Positions 1,990 to 14,590 of a DNA stretch of 32,094 bases are shown one piece after another. The DNA is taken from positions 1-32,094 of the forward strand of contig JAUVZV010000006.1 of the NCBI GenBank assembly GCA_030602375.1, read 5' to 3'. Source of the stretch: Chloroflexota bacterium (GTDB lineage: Bacteria; Chloroflexota; Dehalococcoidia; Dehalococcoidales; JAUVZV01). The position numbers and the translations under genes were made by a program. The notes below the pieces were generated by a model, which was given only the letters and a program-made list of their open reading frames with translations, was not told the DNA's origin and did no database searches. The stretch's first letter is position 1; each line of letters opens with the position of its first letter.

Positions 1990-2808
1990 CTAGCGTGGTA
2001 ACAGCACGCCTCTGGGGTCTATTACTTCTCGGATTATTCTTAATTCTTCTGGTGTTGGTTGGGGCGTTATGGCAACCTCTTCAGGCATAAAGTTATGTAC
2101 ATAACCAGTGTTCCCCCTGGTGTCTTCTAGACTTACCCCGGGATGTAGTGACTTCAGTCTTGCCAGCTTCGTCTTTGGCTCGAAATCAAAGACCGCCTTA
2201 TCTGTCAGGATCATTACTGGACCACTTCCAAGGAAACCAAGCCTTGAGCGTGCCTCCGGCCCGTCGAGGTATCCGACCCCCGAAATAAAGTCCACCCTAT
2301 CCACAAAATTTCTCTTCTCATGGGGCATGATAATGATTTCCCGGCCAAAACAGCTGAAGTGCAGTGGTTGGTTTACCGGGCCAATCAGTCGAATCTTTGG
2401 CCGGTGATAATCCCCGATACACACGGTGTTGCAGTTTCCATATTTGTCAACATGTGCCGCCGAAGCAAAGCCGACATCGACGTCTCCCCTCTTGGTAGCG
2501 AAGGGGTGAAAGGGCGCTGACATGGTGATATGAGCTTCACATCTCCAGTGTATTGTTGTAGTCGGGATCTCCGATTCCAGGGTTGGCATTTCATTGAGTA
2601 CAGGGTTTAGCCCCCATCCAGCCACTGACATAACCGAGTTAGGAGCGTGTGTGTGTTGAGCCAGGGCCATACCCACCAGCGGGACATGCGAAAGTAAAAG
2701 TATTGTTTCCTCCCCCGTGGCTAGGCCAAGGAACCATCTTTCAAAGTCTTTAAGCTCATGGGAGACTGCGGCAGCCATAACTTCATAGACAGTCGGCTCC
2801 TCATTCAC
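1990..2808 (-). CDS. CoA-transferase family I, beta subunit (GctB/IpdB-like)
   Basis: 272-aa ORF with SxxVPLVGMALAQHTHAPNSVM and YGNCNTVCIGDYHRPKIRLIG features of subunit B; paired with subunit A; start GTG overlaps upstream TAG (TAGTG). Confidence 0.85.
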   Translation of the reverse strand: MNEEPTVYEVMAAAVSHELKDFERWFLGLATGEETILLLSHVPLVGMALAQHTHAPNSVMSVAGWGLNPVLNEMPTLESEIPTTTIHWRCEAHITMSAPFHPFATKRGDVDVGFASAAHVDKYGNCNTVCIGDYHRPKIRLIGPVNQPLHFSCFGREIIIMPHEKRNFVDRVDFISGVGYLDGPEARSRLGFLGSGPVMILTDKAVFDFEPKTKLARLKSLHPGVSLEDTRGNTGYVHNFMPEEVAITPQPTPEELRIIREVIDPRGVLLPR

Positions 2809-3719
2809 TAAAGGCCACCTCCTACATGTCTGATCTTCATCAGATTCTCAACTCCGATGAGTTTGAGATAGTCAAGGTGAGATTTAACGCCGTAGACATA
2901 TTTATCCAGATACTTCTTAAACTCGGCTGGGTCTCGAGCCAGCCTAGCATACATAGTTAGGTGTTCCGCATCAAAATTATATAATTGTAAATAAGACGAG
3001 GGGTGAGCTCCGTAAGGGGCCTCTACAATGGCAACGTTTCGAAACCTAGGGATCATATTCAGGTGTGATAATCGTAAAACCCGTTCCCGGTCTATAATCT
3101 GCTCCACAGTGACAATCACCTTGTTTGTGGTCCGAGTCATCACCAGATCCCAATTCATTGGTAGTTGCATGTTTGGAAAGTAGAGAGCATTGCCATATCT
3201 ATCACCCATAGGAGTATGGACTATCACCCATTCCGGATCAGCTGGGGGGATGGCATGATACTTACCTCCATCCAAAGGGCTGACCCCTTCCTTGATATCC
3301 CGGTTATACTTAGGTATGTCGCTTCCAAAGAGTATCCGGCTAGGGATAAAGGGGTCTCCTCGGGCGCTGCACTGGAACCTTTCAATGGCTAAGTCCTCAC
3401 TGTATTCCACAACTTCAATCTCACCCTTCTCAACTGCCCTGCGGAAATTTGGTGCCACCCCAAACTTCTCCAGTCCTACATAGCAGGTCTCTATCCTCTT
3501 AACGCATCCGGCACCAACGAGTATGTCAACCTCATTGCCATTGGTGAAGCCAACAATGGTAAGGTCCTTGACACCTTGTCTAATTAGCTCGTAGATAAAA
3601 GCCATAGGGTGATTGTGGATGGTGAACCCGCCGAAAGTGATGCGCGAGCCGTTCTTAATCAGTTTAGCAGCCTCGGCTAAACTGCATAGCTTTTCCTTGA
3701 GTTGGACCACAGACATCAC
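2808..3719 (-). CDS. CoA-transferase family I, alpha subunit (GctA/IpdA-like)
   Basis: 303 aa; ITFGGFTIHNHPMAFIYELIRQGVKDLTIVG, EYSEDLAIERFQCSARGDPFIPSRILFGSDI typical of subunit A. Confidence 0.85.
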   Translation of the reverse strand: MMSVVQLKEKLCSLAEAAKLIKNGSRITFGGFTIHNHPMAFIYELIRQGVKDLTIVGFTNGNEVDILVGAGCVKRIETCYVGLEKFGVAPNFRRAVEKGEIEVVEYSEDLAIERFQCSARGDPFIPSRILFGSDIPKYNRDIKEGVSPLDGGKYHAIPPADPEWVIVHTPMGDRYGNALYFPNMQLPMNWDLVMTRTTNKVIVTVEQIIDRERVLRLSHLNMIPRFRNVAIVEAPYGAHPSSYLQLYNFDAEHLTMYARLARDPAEFKKYLDKYVYGVKSHLDYLKLIGVENLMKIRHVGGGL

Positions 3720-3725
3720 CTCTCT

Positions 3726-4883
3726 TTAAAGAGTTCTCCCCAGCAGAGACATAACCTGGGCATCGGTAACTGTTGCCGCTGAGCTTTTGCCCGCCACCGG
3801 GACAAGTACCGGTGCTTTCTTGATTTCGTGGTGGAGTACTGCCACCTTCACCACATAAGGGGTATTTATTTCAGCTGTCTCCCCAGCAGGCACAGCTACC
3901 CTTCTGCCCTGGTAGTTGAGTGCCACCACGCCGGAGTTCCAGAGCAGGCGTTGGTTCTCCAGTCGCTCCTCCCGCTTCTCCCAGCAGACTAGTCCGCAAT
4001 TGCCACAGGTGTCAAAGTAGGTTTCATTGGGGTCGAAACAAAAGTCTCGCTCGGTACGGAAGGCTGGCTTGTCTTGTCGGTCAGGGTCGGCGCGCCGGAG
4101 GCGGCGGCTCAGCTCAATAAGCTCGGCTTCATCTGCGGGTAATGGGTAGTCCACTCGGTAAGGACTCCAGGTCGACCACTTCTTGTTTGGTCCCAAGCCA
4201 TGAAAGCCGCCACATCCGATGATACAGCGGGCATTATTATCCTTCTTGGCATAGCTATACTCCCTGCCAGCTATGGTCACCGAGACGGTTTGCCGCTTAC
4301 TTATCATTTCCACCGGGCAGACGGTGGTACAAATCTTGCATCTCTGGCATGGGCTTTCTTCAAGGAGAGGGTCTGGCTCAAGTTTGGCTGTAGTGAGCAC
4401 CGCACCTAAGTAGACCGCGGCACCGAACTGGGGAGTCACCAGATTGCCACTCCATCCCAGCGTCCCCAATCCAGCCGCTACCGCCCCATAACGAAGAGAG
4501 AAATCAGGCACTATCTCCACCCGGCTAAAGTGGTCGGTACCGCCCGGTTCGGGGCGATAGGATTTGTTGGCATGCACCCACCGGGCTTCAAAGCCCCGCC
4601 CTTTAAGGAGGTCAACCAAGCGGTCAGAAATATTATAAAGCTTCTGGTAAATGAGCTTTTGGTCTGTACCGCGGGACAACCAATCTCTCTTGCTGAGGTA
4701 ATCACGAATGGCCCTCCGGTCCAGCGGAATGGCAAAGGAGATGACTGACTGCGTGGATGGCAGCAGGTAGTCCGGGTCGGCCGAAGGGGGAGCATCGTTA
4801 AGCCTTTCCCGGGAGGCAATACCCACCAGAGCGGCACCATTTTCCCTGGCAATGGCCTTAATCTTGGTCTCCATAATTTCCAT
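3726..4883 (-). CDS. QueG/reductive-dehalogenase-like 4Fe-4S (possibly corrinoid-binding) oxidoreductase
   Basis: 385 aa; RYGAVAAGLGTLGWSGNLVTP (QueG-like), ferredoxin motifs CQRCKICTTVCP and CGNCGLVCW. Confidence 0.75.
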   Translation of the reverse strand: MEIMETKIKAIARENGAALVGIASRERLNDAPPSADPDYLLPSTQSVISFAIPLDRRAIRDYLSKRDWLSRGTDQKLIYQKLYNISDRLVDLLKGRGFEARWVHANKSYRPEPGGTDHFSRVEIVPDFSLRYGAVAAGLGTLGWSGNLVTPQFGAAVYLGAVLTTAKLEPDPLLEESPCQRCKICTTVCPVEMISKRQTVSVTIAGREYSYAKKDNNARCIIGCGGFHGLGPNKKWSTWSPYRVDYPLPADEAELIELSRRLRRADPDRQDKPAFRTERDFCFDPNETYFDTCGNCGLVCWEKREERLENQRLLWNSGVVALNYQGRRVAVPAGETAEINTPYVVKVAVLHHEIKKAPVLVPVAGKSSAATVTDAQVMSLLGRTL

Positions 4884-4901
4884 CTCTCCCCTTTTGCTTC
4901 T

Positions 4902-5759
4902 TTAGCTATATAAATCTTTACTGATGTTCTCATAGGAGCCCGGCACTCTCCAGCGGAGAGGACTAAAAATAGTCTCGTTCTGAAGTCTTTTTAATTCTTC
5001 TTGGACAGAAACCGTCGCCGTTATCAAACCTTCTTCCGAGGTTTCGGCAATTACCTTGCCCTGCGGGTTAACTATTCTGCTGTTACCCAAATACCTTTGT
5101 TGTTTACTTACACCGACCATTCCTGAAGCCACGAGCCAGCGCACGTTCTCCAGTGCCCTGGTTCGGGTTAATAATTCCCAGGCATGAGTAAACCATCCCC
5201 CCTCCCCGGGCCAAGCGGTGGGCGAGACCAAAATCTCGGCACCCCCCAGGGTCAATTCTCTTGCTGACTCAGGAAACAAGAGGTCGTAACAGATAAATAT
5301 GCCTATCCTGCCCAGATTGGTTTCAAATACATTCCATGAATCGCCGGGGCGAAATATGTCCCGTTCATTCCCAGCTAGGTGGACCTTTCGATAAACTCCA
5401 ATCAGACCCCCCGGACCAACAAGAGCAGCTGAGTTATAAAGCAGCCGAATAAATGACGTCTCCACTTTTTCGCAGAAGCCATAGATAATATAGATGTTTT
5501 TCTCGGCAGCCTTGCTAGCCAGAATTTCAGTACTTTCACCAGGGGCGGCTTCGGCATTTTCATGGTGGTATCTCAGTTCCTCGGCGGTGAATTCATGGTT
5601 TTCCGAATATAAATAACCCTGGAGCGACATCTCTGGAAAAACTATCAAGCTAGCGCCCAGACCGGACGCTTCATCAATGAATCTCAGGTATTTCTTCAGG
5701 TTATGGTCTTTATCAAGCTCAGCGTTCATACTTACTGCGGCTAGTGTTATCTTTGCCAC
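4902..5759 (-). CDS. Carbon-nitrogen hydrolase (nitrilase superfamily)
   Basis: 285 aa; LIVFPEMSLQGY (Glu), YRKVHL (Lys), IGIFICYDLLFPESAREL (Cys) triad motifs. Confidence 0.9.
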   Translation of the reverse strand: MAKITLAAVSMNAELDKDHNLKKYLRFIDEASGLGASLIVFPEMSLQGYLYSENHEFTAEELRYHHENAEAAPGESTEILASKAAEKNIYIIYGFCEKVETSFIRLLYNSAALVGPGGLIGVYRKVHLAGNERDIFRPGDSWNVFETNLGRIGIFICYDLLFPESARELTLGGAEILVSPTAWPGEGGWFTHAWELLTRTRALENVRWLVASGMVGVSKQQRYLGNSRIVNPQGKVIAETSEEGLITATVSVQEELKRLQNETIFSPLRWRVPGSYENISKDLYS

Positions 5760-5795
5760 TCTTCTTTCTCCTTTGGTTATCTTTTCTTTAGGTAA

Positions 5796-6698
5796 TTATA
5801 ACAATTTATATGTTTCACCACCTAATCTTTCTGGTTTCTGTTTTAAGACGATAAATATCCCGCCCAAAATCAGCAGGCCTCCTGTTATTTCAATAACAGT
5901 CGGTGTCTCTTCAAGGATGAAATATCCGAGAGTTGTTGCTCCGACTGGTTCACCAAGAATGGCGACGGCAACAAAGGTAGCTGGTACTAGGCGCAGGGCT
6001 AGATTTAAAGACGAGTGACCGATAAGCTGCGGCACGACTGCTAGGAGGATGAGCATGATATAGGTGGTGGAGGAATAACCAAATAGACTGTGACCGGCGA
6101 GCAGGGTGGCGATAAGTAAAATCAGCGCCGCACCAGTGCAGATAATTGCCAGGTAATGACGAAGCTCAATGCGCCTTCTAAGCTGTCGACCAATAACAAG
6201 ATAGGAACCCATGGCCAAGGCACCCAGCAAAGCCAGCCCATCACCCAGTAGGGCACCCGGGCTTATCCTAAAACCGCTGTGGGTAATGAATATAGCTCCG
6301 ATGAAGGCAACCACAATGCCGAGTATCATTATCCTGGTCAGCCTTTCCCGCCACAGGAAATAGGAGATTAAAGCCACGAATAAGGGATTAGCGGTTACCA
6401 GAATCACCGAGCTGGCAATCGTAGTGTAACTAAGTGAGGTTATCCAAAGGGCAAAGTGCAGGGCTAAAAATAGGCTTGAGAGCAGCACTAATAACCAGTC
6501 ACCCCGGGATAGTTTGTTTAAGGTCTCTTTAGGTCGGACGAGGAGAAAAGGGATTAATACCAGTGAGGCTAGGGTTAAGCGGTAGGTAGCAATAACAAGG
6601 GGGGGTGCCTCTGCCAAACGGATGAAAATAGCGGCGAAGGAAACGGAAAGCACCCCGACGAAGAGGATTAAATATGGTTTCGCTTTAATTCCGGTCAT
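5796..6698 (-). CDS. EamA/DMT-family transporter
   Basis: 300-aa hydrophobic protein with duplicated EamA pattern (FIRLAEAPPLVIATYRLTLASLVLIPF; AILGEPVGATTLGYFILEETP). Confidence 0.9.
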   Translation of the reverse strand: MTGIKAKPYLILFVGVLSVSFAAIFIRLAEAPPLVIATYRLTLASLVLIPFLLVRPKETLNKLSRGDWLLVLLSSLFLALHFALWITSLSYTTIASSVILVTANPLFVALISYFLWRERLTRIMILGIVVAFIGAIFITHSGFRISPGALLGDGLALLGALAMGSYLVIGRQLRRRIELRHYLAIICTGAALILLIATLLAGHSLFGYSSTTYIMLILLAVVPQLIGHSSLNLALRLVPATFVAVAILGEPVGATTLGYFILEETPTVIEITGGLLILGGIFIVLKQKPERLGGETYKLL

Positions 6699-6705
6699 AA
6701 AAATC

Positions 6706-7125
6706 TTACACCGGCTTGAAGGCTAAGAAAGTTTTCAAATTTCCCTGAGCGCCTTGATGCAGGTATTGCACGGTTAGAGGTGTCCCAATTCTTATTGTCT
6801 CCGGGTTATTTGCCGCCACCCCCTCAATGCGGGCTACTATCCTGGCTCCTTCCTCAAGCTCCACCACCCCAATGCAATAAGGATGCCTGGTATTGTAGCC
6901 TTCTTTGACCATAAAAGGAGGACCGATAGCTATCGAAGTAAAAGCAACCAGCCTGCCCTTGCCCTTCATCTGGGCCCATTCCATTTTAAGGCTTTGGCAG
7001 TGAGGGCAAAGGGAGCGAGGGGGCACGAAGAGCCGGCCACACTTTTTACATCTTGAAGCCATGAGTTTTTCTTCACTCAAGAATTGCTCATAGGTAATAT
7101 CGCTGAAAGGCCTTTCTTCGGTCAC
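6706..7125 (-). CDS. Zn-ribbon/OB-fold protein (DUF35), thiolase partner
   Basis: CKKCGRLFVPPRSLCPHC rubredoxin-like ribbon plus OB-fold; probable GTG start at 7125 behind GGAGAT, one base after the thiolase stop (ORF track extends to 7194). Confidence 0.85.
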   Translation of the reverse strand: MTEERPFSDITYEQFLSEEKLMASRCKKCGRLFVPPRSLCPHCQSLKMEWAQMKGKGRLVAFTSIAIGPPFMVKEGYNTRHPYCIGVVELEEGARIVARIEGVAANNPETIRIGTPLTVQYLHQGAQGNLKTFLAFKPV

Positions 7126-7126
7126 T

Positions 7127-8392
7127 TTATCTCCTCTCAAGAATGGTAACCGTACAGGTACCCCCGGTTCCACCGAGATTATGAGCGGCGCCAACCCTTA
7201 AGTTGGGATTCGGGATTTGCCGCTTCCCGGCTTCACCTCTTAGCTGCTTCCAAACCTCATAAAGCTGGGCTGTACCCGTGGCACCTACCGGGTGTCCTTT
7301 ACATTTAAGCCCCCCTGAGGTGTTAATCGGTTTTGGCCCGTCTAATTTAGTTATACCCTCGGCCACAACCTTATAGCCTTCCCCAGGTTTACAAAAGCCA
7401 AGGTCTTCCAGGTGAATAATCTCGGCGATGGAGAAACAATCGTGCACCTCAGCAAATTGAATCTCTTCCGGATTAAGCCCTGACATCTTAAAAGCTTCAT
7501 TGGCGGCATGCCTTGTAGCTTCAAAGAAGGTAAGGTCATCCACAGCATGTAAATCTAGGCCACTTCCTTGTCCGATGCCAGCAACATGCAGGGGATTATC
7601 GGTAAAGTTTTTAGCTATTTCCTCGGCTACCAGTAGCATACAACTTGCCCCGTCGCTTATCGGGCAGCAGTCAAAAAGGTACAATGGCCAAGAAACTACC
7701 GGGTTAACCACCGGGTCAAGCAGGAACTCCTGCTCATCCTTCCAGGCTGGTATTGGTTCGCCTTTGCTCCTGGCGCGTTCAATTCTGGAATCCATGATAT
7801 CACGGATAGATAAATTAAACTGTGCCTTCGGGTTAAATCTGGCGTTATTATGGCTTTTTACGGTAACATTCATCAGATGCTGTCTGGTGGCTCCATACTT
7901 TTCAAAATAAGCTGTAGCCATAATAGCAAAACAGCCCGGGAAGGTAAGTCCAATCTGCCCTTCATAGGGGCTGCTTGCCAGCGCCAAACCCTCGGTAACT
8001 TCACTGGTAGTGCGTTTTGACATCTCCTCAACCCCACCGACTAAAACGATGTCGTAGAATCCAGAGGCAATGGCAAAGACACCTTCCCTGAAGGCGAGTC
8101 CGCTTGAGGCGCAGGCACCCTCTGTCCTTGTTGCCGCTTTTGGGGTATGTCCAATTAGGTCAGCTATTATAGGTCCCCAATGCGCTTGATGGGTAAAGAA
8201 ATCGTTGGTGAAATTACCCAGGTAAAGGGCGTCGATATCTTTAGGTTCTAAACCCTTATCTACTGAAGCAAGCATTTCCTGGAAAGCTTCAGTAAACAGG
8301 TCCTTTGAGTTTTTATCTTTAAAGACACCAAATTTTGACAGCCCGGCACCGACCACCGCCACCCCCCTACCGAGCTTTCTTTCCCTTAGCAA
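7127..8392 (-). CDS. Thiolase-family protein (SCP2/Ltp-like acetyl-CoA acetyltransferase)
   Basis: 421 aa; TEGACASSGLAFREG nucleophile motif, GGLKCKGHPVGATG, terminal NLGGTGGTCTVTILER. Confidence 0.9.
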   Translation of the reverse strand: MLRERKLGRGVAVVGAGLSKFGVFKDKNSKDLFTEAFQEMLASVDKGLEPKDIDALYLGNFTNDFFTHQAHWGPIIADLIGHTPKAATRTEGACASSGLAFREGVFAIASGFYDIVLVGGVEEMSKRTTSEVTEGLALASSPYEGQIGLTFPGCFAIMATAYFEKYGATRQHLMNVTVKSHNNARFNPKAQFNLSIRDIMDSRIERARSKGEPIPAWKDEQEFLLDPVVNPVVSWPLYLFDCCPISDGASCMLLVAEEIAKNFTDNPLHVAGIGQGSGLDLHAVDDLTFFEATRHAANEAFKMSGLNPEEIQFAEVHDCFSIAEIIHLEDLGFCKPGEGYKVVAEGITKLDGPKPINTSGGLKCKGHPVGATGTAQLYEVWKQLRGEAGKRQIPNPNLRVGAAHNLGGTGGTCTVTILERR

Positions 8393-8463
8393 TTTAGACC
8401 CTCCAAATCACCTTTTGAAGCCCTCATAATCAGGACTATACCGATAGGCGTGGGATAACAGAA

Positions 8464-8799
8464 TTATCTTTCCCAAGATTTGATAAACTCATACTGGGCT
8501 ATCCCTTTGGTTGTAAACTCCCCTTCCTGCCAAGTGTTTTTCACGTCCTCCAATGCCGCAGCACGCTCCGGGCTATTAAAATATTTATCTAAGGTCTCCT
8601 TTTCCTCAAATTCATACACCGCGATGTACTGGGGAAAGGCTTCGTCGCCACCTATCCTCTTGTAACGGGTTGCTCGCTTCACCCCCGGGTACTTAAACAG
8701 CATTGGAACGTGGATCTCGTTATACCATTGGTTCCATTTCTCCTCTACCTCAGGTCGGCACTCGGTTCCGGCAATGTTTATTACCTTGATGTTACCCAT
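8464..8799 (-). CDS. Small dimeric alpha/beta-barrel (EthD-like) protein
   Basis: 111 aa; KWNQWYNEIHVPMLFKYPGVKRATRYK...YIAVYEFEE pattern. Confidence 0.65.
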   Translation of the reverse strand: MGNIKVINIAGTECRPEVEEKWNQWYNEIHVPMLFKYPGVKRATRYKRIGGDEAFPQYIAVYEFEEKETLDKYFNSPERAAALEDVKNTWQEGEFTTKGIAQYEFIKSWER

Positions 8800-8897
8800 T
8801 CTTTAAACTACCTCCTTTTTGTTTTATGGTTGAAATCCCTTTTTAAGCGCTTTTAGATTAAGCTCCGTCGCTTCAGGCGGGAAGCTATCCTCTTCTC

Positions 8898-10748
8898 TCA
8901 GTCTTTTAATAGGTGTTCAAGCCCAAGCTCACTGAGCGTCTCAGGCAAGGGTGACCCCGTCTTTCTATCCCAGCCCATCAAGTGGTAGTAATTGCTTACC
9001 ATATCTTCCCAGTGAGGTTCAACAGATATGCCTTTAACTGGCCCATCCACTGGGGTGGAGCCATATCTAGGCATTGGTTTATCCATGTCGGGTGTATGCC
9101 CCGCTTTGATGTTAAATAGCCTCATTATATTTATTGCTCTACGTCCTACCTTTAAAGCCTCATCAAATGACAAATCCCAGCCGGTAGCGGCATTTAATGC
9201 TTGGGTTAGAACGGGTATATTGTGTCGCGTGGCCCAGGTGCAGGTGACGAGTGAGTCAGCAAATTGAGTCGAGCCCTTTGTTTTAGCTTCAACCCTTGAG
9301 ACATCTTGCCATGAGAAACGGTCCCATTGCTGAGGTAGCCCGTAAGCAGTTATATCCCTTATCTGGGGTACCAGAGTCTCCACTGTGCCAGTACCAGTAA
9401 CACATGTAGAAAGCATCTCAACCCAGCGGGCGCGGTGGTCGTGGCCTCTAGGGGTACTCGGTTTCATTGTAGAAACAGCCATGTTGATCGCTTCACCACC
9501 AATATGCTCAGCGGCATACTTGAGCCCCTCGGCCAGTATATTGCCGAATCCTCTGCGGTAGGTGATGTTTCTCAACAGGGTGAGGGTTGCCTCAGCATTG
9601 CCCCAGGTCATTTCAAGCCCATCAAGCTCCTTTGCAGTGAGCAACCCTTTCTCATAGCATTCCATCACCCAGCCCACAATCCATCCCGCCTCATTACAAT
9701 CAAAGCCGAGACGATCACCCTCATTAGCAAGCATAACCGCAGCCCCAGGGTCTATCTGGCCAATCTGAGGGCCGTAGGCTGCCCACTCTTCATATTCGGG
9801 GTCCTTGCCAAAATAACCGCTATAAGGGCCCTCGGTAACTTTCAAAAATCCGGAATGTCCCGGGGCAGGACAGGCCCAGCACGGGTGGTTCTTGCGCTCG
9901 AAATGACTCCTGATATAGGGACCATCAAACTTTTCCCATTCCGGGAAGAGGTTGGTAGTGTAGTTCTTAACTGGCAATTCTCCTATTTTCAAATTACCGG
10001 GGAAGCCACGGCTGGTGCCCCACTGATAAACTATATGCTCCTTGAAGTCTTCATTAAGTTGCTTGGCAATGGCTGACACTTTTTGGGCATCAGCAACCTC
10101 GATTTTACCAGCGCTTCGTGAAACTGCTACCGCCTTTATCTTTTTGGCACCCCAGCAAGCGCCGACACCATTATGTGAGGCCGAGTGGCCCCGGTCACCG
10201 AAGACACCGGCAAATTTGACCAGATTTTCACCAGCCGGGCCAATACTAAAGACACTCATGCCGCTTTCGCTATACCCCAGTTCTTTCTTTATCGTATCCT
10301 CAATTTCCCAGGTATTTTGTCCCACCAGGTGCTGAGCATCCCTTAACTCAGCCACTCCGTCATGAACATATAGGTATTTCCAATTGGCACTAGCTCCCTG
10401 AATCAATATGCCGTCAAAACCAGAAAATTTTAGATAGGCACCGAAGAACCCGTTGGCTTGGGTGGAAGCAGCTCCGTTGTTGAGAGCACCTTTGGTCACT
10501 ATTGAGAAACACCCTGTCCCGGCTATTCTGGCACCACCGAGTGCCCCAGAGCCTAGGTAGAGGATATTTTGCGGGTCTGACCAGGCTATTTTGGGGTTCA
10601 CTTCCTCATAAAGATACTTTGACCCCAGCGCCGTACCGCCCACATACTTGCGTAGCACAGATTCATCCAAGGCTTCTTCCCGGACCCCTTCCTTACCCAG
10701 GTCAACCCTCAGAATCTTTCCCGTGGTCCCATAAAGTTTGCTTTTCAT
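8898..10748 (-). CDS. Aldehyde:ferredoxin oxidoreductase-family protein (tungstopterin)
   Basis: 616 aa; MKSKLYGTTGKILRVDLGKEGV N-terminus, GGARIAGTGCFSIVTKGALN, YVGGTALGSKYL; good SD (GGAGGT). Confidence 0.9.
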   Translation of the reverse strand: MKSKLYGTTGKILRVDLGKEGVREEALDESVLRKYVGGTALGSKYLYEEVNPKIAWSDPQNILYLGSGALGGARIAGTGCFSIVTKGALNNGAASTQANGFFGAYLKFSGFDGILIQGASANWKYLYVHDGVAELRDAQHLVGQNTWEIEDTIKKELGYSESGMSVFSIGPAGENLVKFAGVFGDRGHSASHNGVGACWGAKKIKAVAVSRSAGKIEVADAQKVSAIAKQLNEDFKEHIVYQWGTSRGFPGNLKIGELPVKNYTTNLFPEWEKFDGPYIRSHFERKNHPCWACPAPGHSGFLKVTEGPYSGYFGKDPEYEEWAAYGPQIGQIDPGAAVMLANEGDRLGFDCNEAGWIVGWVMECYEKGLLTAKELDGLEMTWGNAEATLTLLRNITYRRGFGNILAEGLKYAAEHIGGEAINMAVSTMKPSTPRGHDHRARWVEMLSTCVTGTGTVETLVPQIRDITAYGLPQQWDRFSWQDVSRVEAKTKGSTQFADSLVTCTWATRHNIPVLTQALNAATGWDLSFDEALKVGRRAINIMRLFNIKAGHTPDMDKPMPRYGSTPVDGPVKGISVEPHWEDMVSNYYHLMGWDRKTGSPLPETLSELGLEHLLKD

Positions 10749-10930
10749 TGCCTACCTCCTGGACTCCAATAGGCCACTGCATCTGGGGCTAAATTTTAAC
10801 CTATCTCAAGGCCCCTGTCTAGTAGCCTCTCCCTACGTGCTCTCATATCTATTTTTATTCTGTCAGACATTCCCCTTCGAAACCGATACAGAATCTAACA
10901 CTGGGGTATTAGTGGATTGGATGAACCCTC

Positions 10931-12070
10931 TTAGCTGGCAAAGTGCTCTCTCAGATAATCAAGGTAAGACTGAAAATTCTCCAGCGATACATCTTCCGGT
11001 ATAAAATGGTCAATACCAGGGAAATAGCCACCCTGGGAGAGAAGGAATGGTATCTTCCGGTCCAGTTCTTCTTTTATTGCCTCCTTCCCCTTAGCCAGGG
11101 CGCGCTTATCAATATTGCCCCATAGAATACATTGCTTACCATACTGCTTTCTTAACTTGACGGCATCCATACCGGCAGCTACCTCAAGGGGATACATCCC
11201 GTTGACCCCGCTTTCAACCCATAAAGGGATGAGCTCAGAGATGTCTCCGTCGGAATCAACGAAGATAATATCTACCCCTTTGCGGTGAAGTAGCTCGGTA
11301 ACTTTTTTATAGTGGGGCATCATAAATTCCCGGAACATCTTGGGAGAGATGAGGGGTCCCCCCTTCCAGGCGATGTCCTCCCAGAAGACGGCAAAGTCCA
11401 CCTGAATATCTTTAAGCACCCTCTGAATTATCTCGGTGGAGAAATACTCCATATGTGCTATCATATCGTGGACTAGCTCTGGGTCATCATAGAAGAGGTA
11501 CATCAGCCTTTCCGCCCCGGTCCACTCACGCAATAGCCCGTAAAAACTGCCTACATCCACCCCCAAGGGGTAGTCCCGTTGGCTTAGGTTTTCAGCATAA
11601 GCACCCCAATCAGGATCAAGCCACCTTTCTGGGTGATGAGGGTCAAGTCGCTTCTTGTACTCATCCCAGTCGCCTCTGTTTTTCACCGGGGCATCAAGCC
11701 AAGCCGGCATCCGCTGCGGGTCATCTTTATATTGACGCAGTTTCCTCCCTCCTTCATCAATGATGACCCTGGTTCTTTCATCTTCTTCCAACACCTTAAG
11801 TTCAAAGCGGGGACGAACCGGGGGGATGAAAGGAGGACCACCTGTTTTGCCTAACGTCAGGAAAGAGGCTTCGACGTGCACCATACCAATTCGCTCAAAA
11901 CCAAAGTAACCCAAGCGAGCCTTGGTTGAGGAAAGGATTTCCTTAGGCGCGCCCTCCTCTACCCAACGCTCCAGGGTTTTGTGCCACATAGCATGATTAT
12001 AAGTTGAAAGAAAAAACGTATTTGGTAGCTCAAATCGAGCAATCTTTAAAAACCGTTCTCTCCCGGTCAT
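10931..12070 (-). CDS. Uroporphyrinogen decarboxylase-family protein, likely corrinoid methyltransferase
   Basis: 379 aa; VDFAVFWEDIAWKGGPLISPKMFREFMMPHYKKVTELLHRKGVDIIFVDSDGDI and GGYFPGIDHFIPEDVSLENF UroD/MtaA-like motifs. Confidence 0.85.
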   Translation of the reverse strand: MTGRERFLKIARFELPNTFFLSTYNHAMWHKTLERWVEEGAPKEILSSTKARLGYFGFERIGMVHVEASFLTLGKTGGPPFIPPVRPRFELKVLEEDERTRVIIDEGGRKLRQYKDDPQRMPAWLDAPVKNRGDWDEYKKRLDPHHPERWLDPDWGAYAENLSQRDYPLGVDVGSFYGLLREWTGAERLMYLFYDDPELVHDMIAHMEYFSTEIIQRVLKDIQVDFAVFWEDIAWKGGPLISPKMFREFMMPHYKKVTELLHRKGVDIIFVDSDGDISELIPLWVESGVNGMYPLEVAAGMDAVKLRKQYGKQCILWGNIDKRALAKGKEAIKEELDRKIPFLLSQGGYFPGIDHFIPEDVSLENFQSYLDYLREHFAS

Positions 12071-12099
12071 TATTTTCCCTGCGCCTACCTTAAATATCT

Positions 12100-12747
12100 T
12101 CAGGAGGTTACACCCATAAACCTTAGGGCTATTTCAACTGCCTGAAAACAGTCCTCACCATAGGCATCGACACCTACCTCCTGAGCATACTCTTCGGTGA
12201 GGGATGCACCACCGACCATAATTTTCACGCCCCCTCTCAGCCCGGTTTTTCCCAAAGTTTCTAATACTGAGGGGATGTTAACCATAGTAGTGGTAAGCAG
12301 CGCTGAAATCGCTACCATATCGGGTTTTTCCTCTACTACTGCCTGATGGAATTGCGCTGCTGAGACATCAACTCCTAGGTCAATAACCTCAAATCCATTC
12401 CCTTGTAACACAAATTTGACCATGTTTTTCCCGATGTCGTGCAGGTCCCCTTCAATGGTGCCAATAACTACTTTACCTTTAGGTTTTAGCCCACTTTTGG
12501 CAATAGCTGGCTTTAGAACTTCCAGTCCCCTATTAGCTGCCCGGGCAGCAATGAGTATTTCAGGGAGATAAGCAACACCTTCCTTGAATTTTTCTCCCAC
12601 TTTTTCCATCCCCCTTACCAGTCCTCTCTCCATTAACTCCTTGGCCGGGATTCCCTCATCAAGTGCCTTTTGGGTAAGCTCGGCTACCTGTTCTGCCTCC
12701 CCCTCGTCTATGGCGGTAACAATACTTTCTAAGTAGTCCACTTCCAA
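12100..12747 (-). CDS. Corrinoid (B12-binding) protein of a methyltransferase system (MtbC/MtaC-like)
   Basis: 215 aa; B12-binding GTIEGDLHDIGKNMVKFVLQGNGFEVIDLGVDV (DxHxxG) with helical cap; TTG 12747 or GTG 12741 start. Confidence 0.9.
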   Translation of the reverse strand: MEVDYLESIVTAIDEGEAEQVAELTQKALDEGIPAKELMERGLVRGMEKVGEKFKEGVAYLPEILIAARAANRGLEVLKPAIAKSGLKPKGKVVIGTIEGDLHDIGKNMVKFVLQGNGFEVIDLGVDVSAAQFHQAVVEEKPDMVAISALLTTTMVNIPSVLETLGKTGLRGGVKIMVGGASLTEEYAQEVGVDAYGEDCFQAVEIALRFMGVTS

Positions 12748-12872: not shown

Positions 12873-12900
12873 TTGACAAGTTTGGATTACGAATTATAAT
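12873..12900 (+). promoter_or_regulatory. Perfect-consensus sigma70-type promoter for the KDPG aldolase operon
   Basis: TTGACA (12873-12878)-N16-TATAAT (12895-12900), just upstream of the ORF. Confidence 0.75.
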
Positions 12901-12924: not shown

Positions 12925-13605
12925 GTGATAAAAATTAGGGATAAGTATGAGACCCTGAAATGTATCCTTGATTGTGGCATAATAGCTGCAATTCGGGCAC
13001 CGGATGTTGAGCGTGGACTTAATTTGGCTGAAGCAGCCCGCCGCGGGGGTATTACTGCTCTGGAGATAACAATGACTGTTCCTGGTGCTTTAGAGGTAAT
13101 CCGTGAGCTGGTATCAAGGTATGCTGATAGCGAGGTAGTAATTGGGGCGGGGACTGTTCTTGACGCCGAGACAGCGCGTCTGGCAATCATCTCCGGCGTG
13201 GAATTTGTGGTTGGTCCCCATCTTAACCTGGGGATGCTTCGGATAAGCAATCGCTACCAAAAGGTTTGCATACCTGGAGCAATGAGCGTAACAGAAGTAG
13301 TTAGCGCTATGGAGCACGGGGCTGATGCGGTAAAGATTTTTCCAGCCAGTCTTTTTGGCCCCAGAATTATAAAGGCGATAAGGGAACCACTACCTCAGGC
13401 AAGGCTAATCCCTATGGGTGGAGTAAATGTAGATAACGTAGCCGAGTGGCTTGAGGCTGGCGCAGTCGCGGTAGGGGTTGGTGGTGACCTGACCAAAGAG
13501 GCTTTAGCCAAGGGAGATTATAGCCTAACCGAACAAAAAGCAAAACAATTCATCACCCGAATTAGAGAGGCAAGGGAAAAGTTAAAGGGGGTAAGTAATG
13601 TTTGA
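12925..13605 (+). CDS. eda: 2-keto-3-deoxy-6-phosphogluconate aldolase (KDPG/KHG aldolase)
   Basis: GIIAAIRAPD, GGITALEITMTVPGALE, VIGAGTVLD, VKIFPASLFGP, LIPMGGV motifs; start GTG 12925 or AUU 12934 (see findings). Confidence 0.9.
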   Translation: MIKIRDKYETLKCILDCGIIAAIRAPDVERGLNLAEAARRGGITALEITMTVPGALEVIRELVSRYADSEVVIGAGTVLDAETARLAIISGVEFVVGPHLNLGMLRISNRYQKVCIPGAMSVTEVVSAMEHGADAVKIFPASLFGPRIIKAIREPLPQARLIPMGGVNVDNVAEWLEAGAVAVGVGGDLTKEALAKGDYSLTEQKAKQFITRIREAREKLKGVSNV

Positions 13606-14590
13606 CCTACTCACATTCGGTGAGGTAATGCTCCGGCTCTCTCCACCCCACTTTCAGAGATTGGAGCAGACAACAGGCTTTGATGCTCATGCTGGCGGTG
13701 CCGAGCTAAGTGTAGCTGTTAGCGCGGCCAGGTTTGGGCTCAGGGTGGCATTTGTCACCCGCCTGCCGCGCAACCCGCTGGGGAGAATGATACAGAATAG
13801 GGCCCGGGAACAGGGCGTCGACACCTCACATATTGTATGGTCAGACGGAGACAGGCTGGGGATATACTTCCTCGAATTTGGAGCACTGCCCCGCTCAAGC
13901 GCTGTAGTTTATGACCGGGCTAATTCGGCAATATCAAAAATACAACCCGGCATGATTGATTGGGGCAATCTGTTCTCCCAAACAAGAGCCTTTCACGTGA
14001 CCGGGATTACCCCCGCACTAAGCCCCGGTGCTGCCGAGACAACCAAGGAAGCCTTGAATGAAGCACGAAAGTCAGGTCTGCTGGTCAGCTTTGACCTTAA
14101 CTATCGAGCCCGTCTTTGGAGCACAGAGCAGGCAAGAAATACACTTACTCCTTTGATGGAGTGTGTGGACATCCTGATTACCACCGAAGAGGATACGGCA
14201 AGGGTTTTCCAGATTGAAGGTAAAGACTACAATGAGGTAGCCCGAAAACTTGCTGAATCTTTTGGCTTCAAGGTGGTGGCGATAACAATCAGAGAGAACA
14301 TTACTATATGGAGGAATTACTGGACAGCTATTGCTTACTATAATGGTAAATCTTATGCCGACCGAAAATACGATATTGAGATAGTTGACCGACTCGGTGC
14401 TGGAGATGCTTTCGCTGGTGGCTTTTTATATGGTTATCTCAGTGATGAGACGAATATTGAGCGGGCACTAAAATATGGAACCGCCGCATCGGCATTAAAA
14501 CATTCAAACCCTGGTGATATCAACTGGTGTACACTAGAGGAAGTTGAGCAACTAATGGCTGGTGGGGGGAGTTTAAGGATAAGTCGCTGA
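13598..14590 (+). CDS. PfkB-family sugar kinase, probable 2-keto-3-deoxygluconate kinase
   Basis: MFDLLTFGEVMLRLSPP N-terminus, DRLGAGDAFAGGFLYG catalytic motif; overlaps the aldolase. Confidence 0.88.
   Translation: MFDLLTFGEVMLRLSPPHFQRLEQTTGFDAHAGGAELSVAVSAARFGLRVAFVTRLPRNPLGRMIQNRAREQGVDTSHIVWSDGDRLGIYFLEFGALPRSSAVVYDRANSAISKIQPGMIDWGNLFSQTRAFHVTGITPALSPGAAETTKEALNEARKSGLLVSFDLNYRARLWSTEQARNTLTPLMECVDILITTEEDTARVFQIEGKDYNEVARKLAESFGFKVVAITIRENITIWRNYWTAIAYYNGKSYADRKYDIEIVDRLGAGDAFAGGFLYGYLSDETNIERALKYGTAASALKHSNPGDINWCTLEEVEQLMAGGGSLRISR

Follow-up and report, generated by a model that had tools for sequence, protein, structure and literature searches.

Does the long gene run on the minus strand of contig JAUVZV010000006.1 encode one anaerobic catabolic pathway, or does it bring together several units of separate origin? 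The contig belongs to assembly GCA_030602375.1 of a Chloroflexota bacterium from the class Dehalococcoidia, and the whole stretch analysed, its positions 1 to 32,094, is called the window here. From position 12747 down to 1990 it holds 11 genes, which we treat as blocks: a corrinoid protein with a methyltransferase of the UroD superfamily (block A), a tungsten aldehyde oxidoreductase, AOR (block B), a thiolase with a DUF35 partner (block C), and a QueG-like iron-sulfur protein, a C-N hydrolase, a permease and an IpdAB-like pair lacking the catalytic glutamate (block D). We see about an even chance that the locus is a lineage-specific catabolic island of separately conserved blocks and not one conserved pathway module. 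This reading is preferred because the best relatives of the blocks lie in different genomes, none of the compared stretches joins three blocks, and pairing within the blocks is strong. The genes are real and their arrangement is unusual; a conserved undescribed pathway is not supported by the genomes compared. What we observed is the gene content, the pairing within blocks, the residues and fold described below, and no wider co-conservation in the genomes examined.

Each block was searched in up to 363 genomes of the class or 400 of the phylum, and the surrounding DNA was read. Co-occurrence was assessed in a relaxed comparison of about 200 stretches from related Dehalococcoidia genomes, none closer than the same order. 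Neighbouring genes at the thiolase and UroD loci were named by eye except where Pfam is cited. None of the approximately 200 stretches carries three blocks, and the maximum is two. The blocks have their best relatives in different genomes or on different contigs: the best thiolases are found in G620 (80%) and in G217 and G469 (79-80%), the closest IpdAB-like pair in G694 (56/59%), and the closest QueG-like and IpdAB-like relatives each sit in surroundings unlike those of the window. Genome G474 holds the closest UroD-type protein (74%), two AORs (66% and 62%) and a thiolase (60%), each of the four genes on a contig of its own. Within the blocks, thiolase and DUF35 genes are adjacent in all 29 related loci, the IpdA- and IpdB-like genes in 27 of 29, and the UroD-type gene adjoins a corrinoid-protein gene in at least 6 of 16. 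The open-access literature searched yielded no account of a locus that combines these genes. The sequence-only reading had proposed a single module and had named missing co-conservation in related genomes as the result that would count against it; this is what the neighbourhoods returned, as far as the sampling allows. The claim of one module is thus largely unsupported, given the lack of any three-block locus and the separate contigs of G474; what remains of it is that homologs recur in pairs.

As to the layout, an unbroken run of 11 genes on one strand whose protein families match is more than chance would give. The intergenic gaps are, in the order of transcription, 29, 182, 98, 71, 1, 7, 36, 18, 6 and -1 bp, the only large one lying between the UroD-type and AOR genes. 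The sequence-only reading had listed about ten genes, and all those it named are in place; the C-N hydrolase and the EthD-like gene had gone unnamed. Its 1-bp gap between thiolase and DUF35, its TAGTG overlap of the CoA-transferase genes and its gap of about 180 bp are exact. Its suggestion of two transcription units is plausible, the 182-bp gap holding a promoter-like site with 10 of 12 matches; such sites in the region are not more frequent than expected from shuffled sequence. The identities it gave to the corrinoid and UroD-type pair (Pfam families, cobalamin motif and an MtaA/UroD fold), the thiolase-DUF35 pair (Pfam families and adjacency), the QueG-like protein (motifs for two iron-sulfur clusters) and the IpdAB-like pair (alpha/beta CoA-transferase fold without the transferase glutamate) were all borne out. 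The number of terminator-like sites in the region is likewise not above the shuffled expectation, and no Rfam element was found in the window. In divergent orientation, an aldolase/kinase pair starts 178 bp away from the corrinoid-protein gene.

Table 1. Genes and promoter-like sites in and beside the minus-strand run (window coordinates; KDPG, 2-keto-3-deoxy-6-phosphogluconate; KHG, 2-keto-4-hydroxyglutarate; KDG, 2-keto-3-deoxygluconate; KDGal, 2-keto-3-deoxygalactonate; MT-I, methyltransferase I; WOR, tungsten-containing oxidoreductase; AF2, AlphaFold2).
Feature	Position	Strand	Basis
Corrinoid (B12-binding) protein, MtgC/MtbC-like	12100..12747	-	PF02310 4.6e-28; PF02607 1.1e-17; DLHDIG cobalamin motif
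UroD-superfamily methyltransferase, proposed MT-I O-demethylase	10931..12070	-	PF01208 1.2e-16; alignment; AF2 model
Promoter-like site inside the UroD-AOR gap	10793..10821	-	10/12 match
AOR/WOR large subunit (tungsten aldehyde oxidoreductase) from a divergent clade	8898..10748	-	PF01314/PF02730
EthD-like / DUF4286 small protein	8464..8799	-	PF14114 4.9e-09; TIGR02118 34.1 bits (cut-off 30.5)
SCP2-type thiolase, nucleophile Cys94, HDCF at 317	7127..8392	-	PF22691 9.2e-45; PF00108 4e-25
DUF35 protein (zinc ribbon + OB), thiolase partner, likely start GTG	6706..7125	-	PF01796; PF12172
EamA/DMT family permease	5796..6698	-	PF00892 2e-37
Nitrilase-superfamily C-N hydrolase	4902..5759	-	PF00795 3.5e-55
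QueG/RdhA-like iron-sulfur protein, motifs for two Fe-S clusters	3726..4883	-	TIGR00276 and TIGR02486, both under cut-off
CoA-transferase-fold alpha subunit (GctA/IpdA-like)	2808..3719	-	PF01144 1.5e-22
CoA-transferase-fold beta subunit (GctB/IpdB-like)	1990..2808	-	PF01144
KDPG/KHG aldolase, divergently transcribed, possible partner	12925..13605	+	PF01081; NCBIfam eda 170.8 bits (cut-off 156)
PfkB sugar kinase, KDG/KDGal-kinase-like	13598..14590	+	PF00294; NF041332 318 bits (under cut-off 440)
Consensus sigma-70 promoter TTGACA-16-TATAAT, about 25 bp ahead of the KDPG aldolase start	12873..12900	+	12/12 match

Block A is probably best read as a corrinoid O-demethylase pair. The corrinoid protein carries DLHDIG within its PF02310 and PF02607 domains, in agreement with the DxHxxG cobalamin motif of O-demethylase systems, and scores 219 bits with NCBIfam MtgC_2, below the cut-off of 370. 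For the UroD-type protein a sequence search of the PDB gave no match. Its AF2 model (mean predicted local distance difference test score, pLDDT, 81.9) matches best 4ay7, a methyltransferase of M. mazei (9.5e-11), followed by UroD and cobalamin-independent methionine synthases. The protein falls far under the curated MtaA, MtbA and hemE cut-offs, and its 26.9 bits against a cut-off of 400 for the coenzyme M methyltransferase family do not support an MtaA/MtbA identity. In an alignment of 13 sequences, including 12 relatives at 38-74%, D272-x-D274-G is invariant and D354-H355 nearly so. This Asp-x-Asp sits where His237-x-Cys239, which we take to be the zinc ligands of MtaA, would be expected, a position deduced from the offset of the profile match. 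In O-methyltransferases of the UroD superfamily carboxylates or non-coordinating residues replace one or both cysteine ligands, whereas the S-methyltransferases retain His-Cys-Cys (PMC10418091). UroD homologs have a pterin-binding methyltransferase and the corrinoid activator RACo as neighbours in L017 and a homocysteine S-methyltransferase in L166, and the source genome encodes acetyl-CoA synthase, plus a nearby pterin-binding protein. The O-demethylase reading is proposed because of the MtaA/UroD fold, the Asp-x-Asp, these neighbours and the acetyl-CoA synthase.

The substrate might be a methylated sugar or hydroxy acid, a guess of low confidence made because of the neighbours of the UroD paralogs and the KDPG aldolase and KDG-kinase-like genes beside the pair in the window. 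In the own genome, two divergent UroD-type genes on contig 24 (L022 and L021) lie among MR/MLE, altronate dehydratase, GlcD/GlcF, IlvD and TRAP transporter genes, which hints at a link between UroD-type proteins and sugar-acid metabolism. In another locus (L024:3181-3667) the start of a corrinoid protein is fused to the end of a UroD-type protein, apparently the remnant of an internal deletion; this truncated UroD has as neighbours a thiolase-DUF35 pair and genes for a MaoC-like protein and an acyl-CoA dehydrogenase.

The AOR of block B contains the AFOR_N and AFOR_C domains and has its closest solved structure in 1aor, the P. furiosus AOR (4.4e-84), whose numbering (PfAOR) is used here. It belongs to a clade of 30 distinct Dehalococcoidia sequences including its own, with relatives at 43-66% (L167, L168, L177-L185 and L146-L165). 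In the alignment the third ligand of the [4Fe-4S] cluster, Cys295, is replaced by His in all 30 members and the other three cluster cysteines are kept, the motif being C-x2-C-x4-H in the window and C-x2-C-x3-H in the relatives. In addition, Tyr427 is changed to His, and His448 to Glu in all members except one, while Glu313 is kept and Thr243 is kept in 27 of 30. In most aldehyde-oxidising members of the WOR family the pterin-site residues Thr243, Glu313, Tyr427 and His448 vary very little (PMC13328260). Thus the clade retains neither the complete pterin-site set (Tyr427 and His448 changed) nor the four-cysteine cluster set (Cys295 changed) of aldehyde-oxidising members, and since nearly fixed pterin-site residues have changed, aldehyde activity of the window AOR should not be assumed. 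A His-ligated [4Fe-4S] cluster and an altered active site are possible in this clade, judging from the alignment.

Genes for GarR-like proteins, HpcH aldolase or GlcD/F stand beside three of the four closest relatives from this clade. The same sugar- and hydroxy-acid genes are found at 1 of the 23 other clade loci (4/27 overall) and at none of 25 thiolase loci. The first count used partly circular seeds; with seeds that did not come from the AOR loci, the signal shrank. In G463 an AOR belonging to the altered clade begins about 100 bp after a thiolase and a DUF35 gene, all three in a row on one strand (L204:5648-9312).

Block C was compared with solved structures and with motif criteria that distinguish the SCP2-type thiolase (HDCF) from the steroid aldolase (PMC12329534). 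By these criteria the thiolase reads as SCP2-type and not as a steroid aldolase: both signatures, the nucleophilic Cys94 and HDCF, are present, and the closest solved structure is the thiolase 6esq (1.4e-73). The zinc finger of DUF35 is a canonical C4 one (C-x2-C-x10-C-x2-C). Since HDCF stands where steroid side-chain aldolases (Ltp2/Sal) have YDHF or YDCY, and a nucleophilic Cys where they have Gly, such an aldolase was ruled out, and the retro-aldolase of steroid type that the sequence-only reading had considered was given up. Profile scores for BbsA and BbsB are far under the curated cut-offs. The nearest thiolases (68-80%) sit with DUF35 in differing contexts: beside a second thiolase, beside a TRAP transporter and a beta-keto acid cleavage enzyme, or beside genes like those of 2-hydroxyacyl-CoA dehydratase.

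In block D, both subunits of the CoA-transferase-fold pair are nearer in sequence to the glutaconate CoA-transferase GctAB than to IpdAB (alpha: 1poi_A 1.4e-36 vs 6co6_A 1.3e-25, 129 vs 93 bits; beta: 1poi_B 1.6e-32, 116 vs 68 bits). In the alignment column of the catalytic Glu54 of GctB, the beta subunit has Ala, as does L126, and the IpdB sequence has Gly. Glu is kept at this column in many relatives of the class, and the VAGW motif is confined to the window and L126. A class-wide GctB-like group (L050-L063) carries Tyr there, and several of its members adjoin a thiolase. Loss of the catalytic glutamate has been used as an argument against IpdAB being a transferase (PMC5380842), and for the present pair a hydrolase or decarboxylase function would be likelier than transfer. 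As a candidate for the identity of the pair, IpdAB itself (COCHEA-CoA hydrolase) agrees in the lost glutamate but not in closest sequence, where GctAB scores higher.

By the curated cut-offs the QueG-like protein is neither an epoxyqueuosine reductase (QueG; TIGR00276 45 bits, cut-off 200) nor a reductive dehalogenase (RdhA; TIGR02486 35 bits, cut-off 160). Searched at 1e-30 in the 400 phylum genomes, it was found in its own genome only, and a contig scan added one match; the search of genomes carrying other blocks gave relatives at 65-70% in G056 and G451. Some genomes of the same order, each a single contig of 1.4-2.1 Mb, hold up to 26 QueG/RdhA-like candidates. An AF2 model built from two sequences reached a pLDDT of 33.6 and was not used. 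In G056 (L199:1778-5602) the QueG-like gene (64-65% to that of the window) has an iron alcohol dehydrogenase gene nearby and comes some 500 bp downstream of another gene of the AOR superfamily, different from that of the window; in G469 (L200:685-3726) a QueG-like gene is followed directly by an iron-sulfur flavoenzyme of the BaiCD/2-enoate-reductase type. All three motifs of the E-K-C triad (FPE, RKVH and ICYD) are retained in the C-N hydrolase.

For an island of separately conserved blocks, the substrates, the path of the methyl group and the way in which the blocks would connect are all inferred, as follows. Block A would probably take a methyl group from the oxygen of a small methoxylated substrate and pass it to Co(I) of the corrinoid protein, from where it would enter the Wood-Ljungdahl pathway via a folate methyltransferase encoded elsewhere. 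Block B would be a ferredoxin-linked tungsten enzyme of the altered clade. The hydroxy- and sugar-acid genes beside the closest AOR relatives and, next to block A, the divergent KDPG aldolase and KDG kinase hint at a hydroxy or sugar acid as the demethylated product. Blocks C and D would most likely serve a separate or downstream C-C cleavage of CoA thioesters. We consider the boldest version unlikely: in it the corrinoid system would demethylate O-methylated sugar or hydroxy acids into the KDG/KDPG branch and the Wood-Ljungdahl pathway, and the tungsten enzyme next to it, its iron-sulfur cluster ligated by His and its active site rebuilt (Tyr427 to His, His448 to Glu), would catalyse something different from ordinary aldehyde oxidation.

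Several observations weigh against a mosaic of blocks and against its sugar-acid part. A thiolase or DUF35 gene occurs with IpdAB-like genes in 9 of 29 loci, as looser homologs and in part from related genomes; thiolase, DUF35 and AOR (53%) stand together in L204, corrinoid and UroD-type genes with an AOR in L023, and a QueG-like gene with an AOR-superfamily gene in L199. The close gaps from the EthD-like gene through the IpdB-like one suggest real co-transcription, and the comparison set reaches no closer than genomes of the same order. Past the nearest relatives the sugar-acid signal is weak, at the 1 of 23 clade loci given above, and its 4 of 16 UroD loci come from partly circular seeds.

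The main rival is a single lineage-specific operon for the breakdown of an acyl compound, methoxylated or branched, through demethylation, oxidation of an aldehyde, CoA-dependent thiolysis and cleavage of a ring or chain. It draws on the contiguous same-strand genes with small gaps, on the pairwise linkage of homologs of several blocks elsewhere and on the glutamate-less CoA-transferase-fold pair. However, no other locus has three blocks, the nearest relatives of each block are found in different contexts, the 182-bp gap has its own promoter-like site, and the run encodes neither an acyl-CoA dehydrogenase nor a hydratase nor a CoA ligase. A single operon is somewhat unlikely in our view. We think it distinctly unlikely that unrelated units of one to three genes came to lie on the same strand by accident in a small compacted genome. 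The genome is indeed small (a metagenome assembly of 0.86 Mb at 75% completeness, 50 contigs), the families are mixed, with a permease and an EthD-like protein among them, and the blocks are distributed independently across the class, but 11 uninterrupted same-strand genes with tight gaps speak against it, and the pairwise recurrence of block homologs means that more than coincidence has brought these genes together. The blocks thus belong to overlapping catabolic repertoires, as the pairwise recurrence of looser homologs indicates. That the locus serves steroid-type breakdown or the anaerobic breakdown of steroids or terpenoids, the thiolase-DUF35 pair working as a retro-aldolase and the IpdAB-like pair opening a ring, is very improbable and was already disfavoured, for although the thiolase, DUF35 and IpdAB-like proteins resemble steroid enzyme families, the thiolase and DUF35 motifs are not of the steroid type, the CoA-transferase-fold pair is nearer GctAB, and no other steroid gene was recognised in the window.

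Uncultured Dehalococcoidia are widespread in anoxic sediments, and little is known of the carbon sources they use. What is still new at this locus is mostly the altered AOR clade and the substrate of the demethylase. In the literature found, corrinoid demethylases are described mainly for aromatics; if block A demethylates non-aromatic methoxy compounds, their known substrate range would widen. Three signature residues are changed in the AOR clade, which makes it a clear target: only 5 of 92 WOR clades have a defined role, and these residues are described as nearly fixed in aldehyde-oxidising members (PMC13328260).

Compared with known systems, the pair in block C shares the adjacent SCP2-type thiolase and DUF35, the nucleophilic Cys, HDCF and the C4 finger with the archaeal acetoacetyl-CoA thiolase-DUF35-HMG-CoA synthase complex (6esq) and the benzoylsuccinyl-CoA thiolase BbsAB, but has no HMG-CoA synthase or benzylsuccinate genes adjoining it. 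With IpdAB and AibAB, which have a type I CoA-transferase fold without the catalytic glutamate, the block D pair has in common the alpha/beta arrangement and the missing glutamate of the beta subunit; it differs in its greater closeness to GctAB and in having neither a ring substrate nor steroid genes in its surroundings. The AOR resembles the class I tungsten oxidoreductases (WOR/AOR; PMC13328260) in its single large subunit with AFOR_N and AFOR_C, in Glu313, Thr243 and three cluster cysteines, and its relatives carry a ThiS-like WorX gene, whereas no WorX was seen adjoining the AOR gene in the window and the clade is set apart by Cys295 to His, Tyr427 to His and His448 to Glu. Unlike MtvABC of Moorella and MtoABCD of Methermicoccus (PMC8630106), block A is in a cluster without a methyltransferase II or activator gene, and its neighbours are the KDPG aldolase/kinase pair and the tungsten oxidoreductase instead of aromatic transporters. 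Like these systems, it combines a small corrinoid protein with a UroD-superfamily methyltransferase, may, by the deduced position, have carboxylates where S-methyltransferases would have their His/Cys zinc ligands, and has relatives that stand beside a pterin methyltransferase and a RACo activator.

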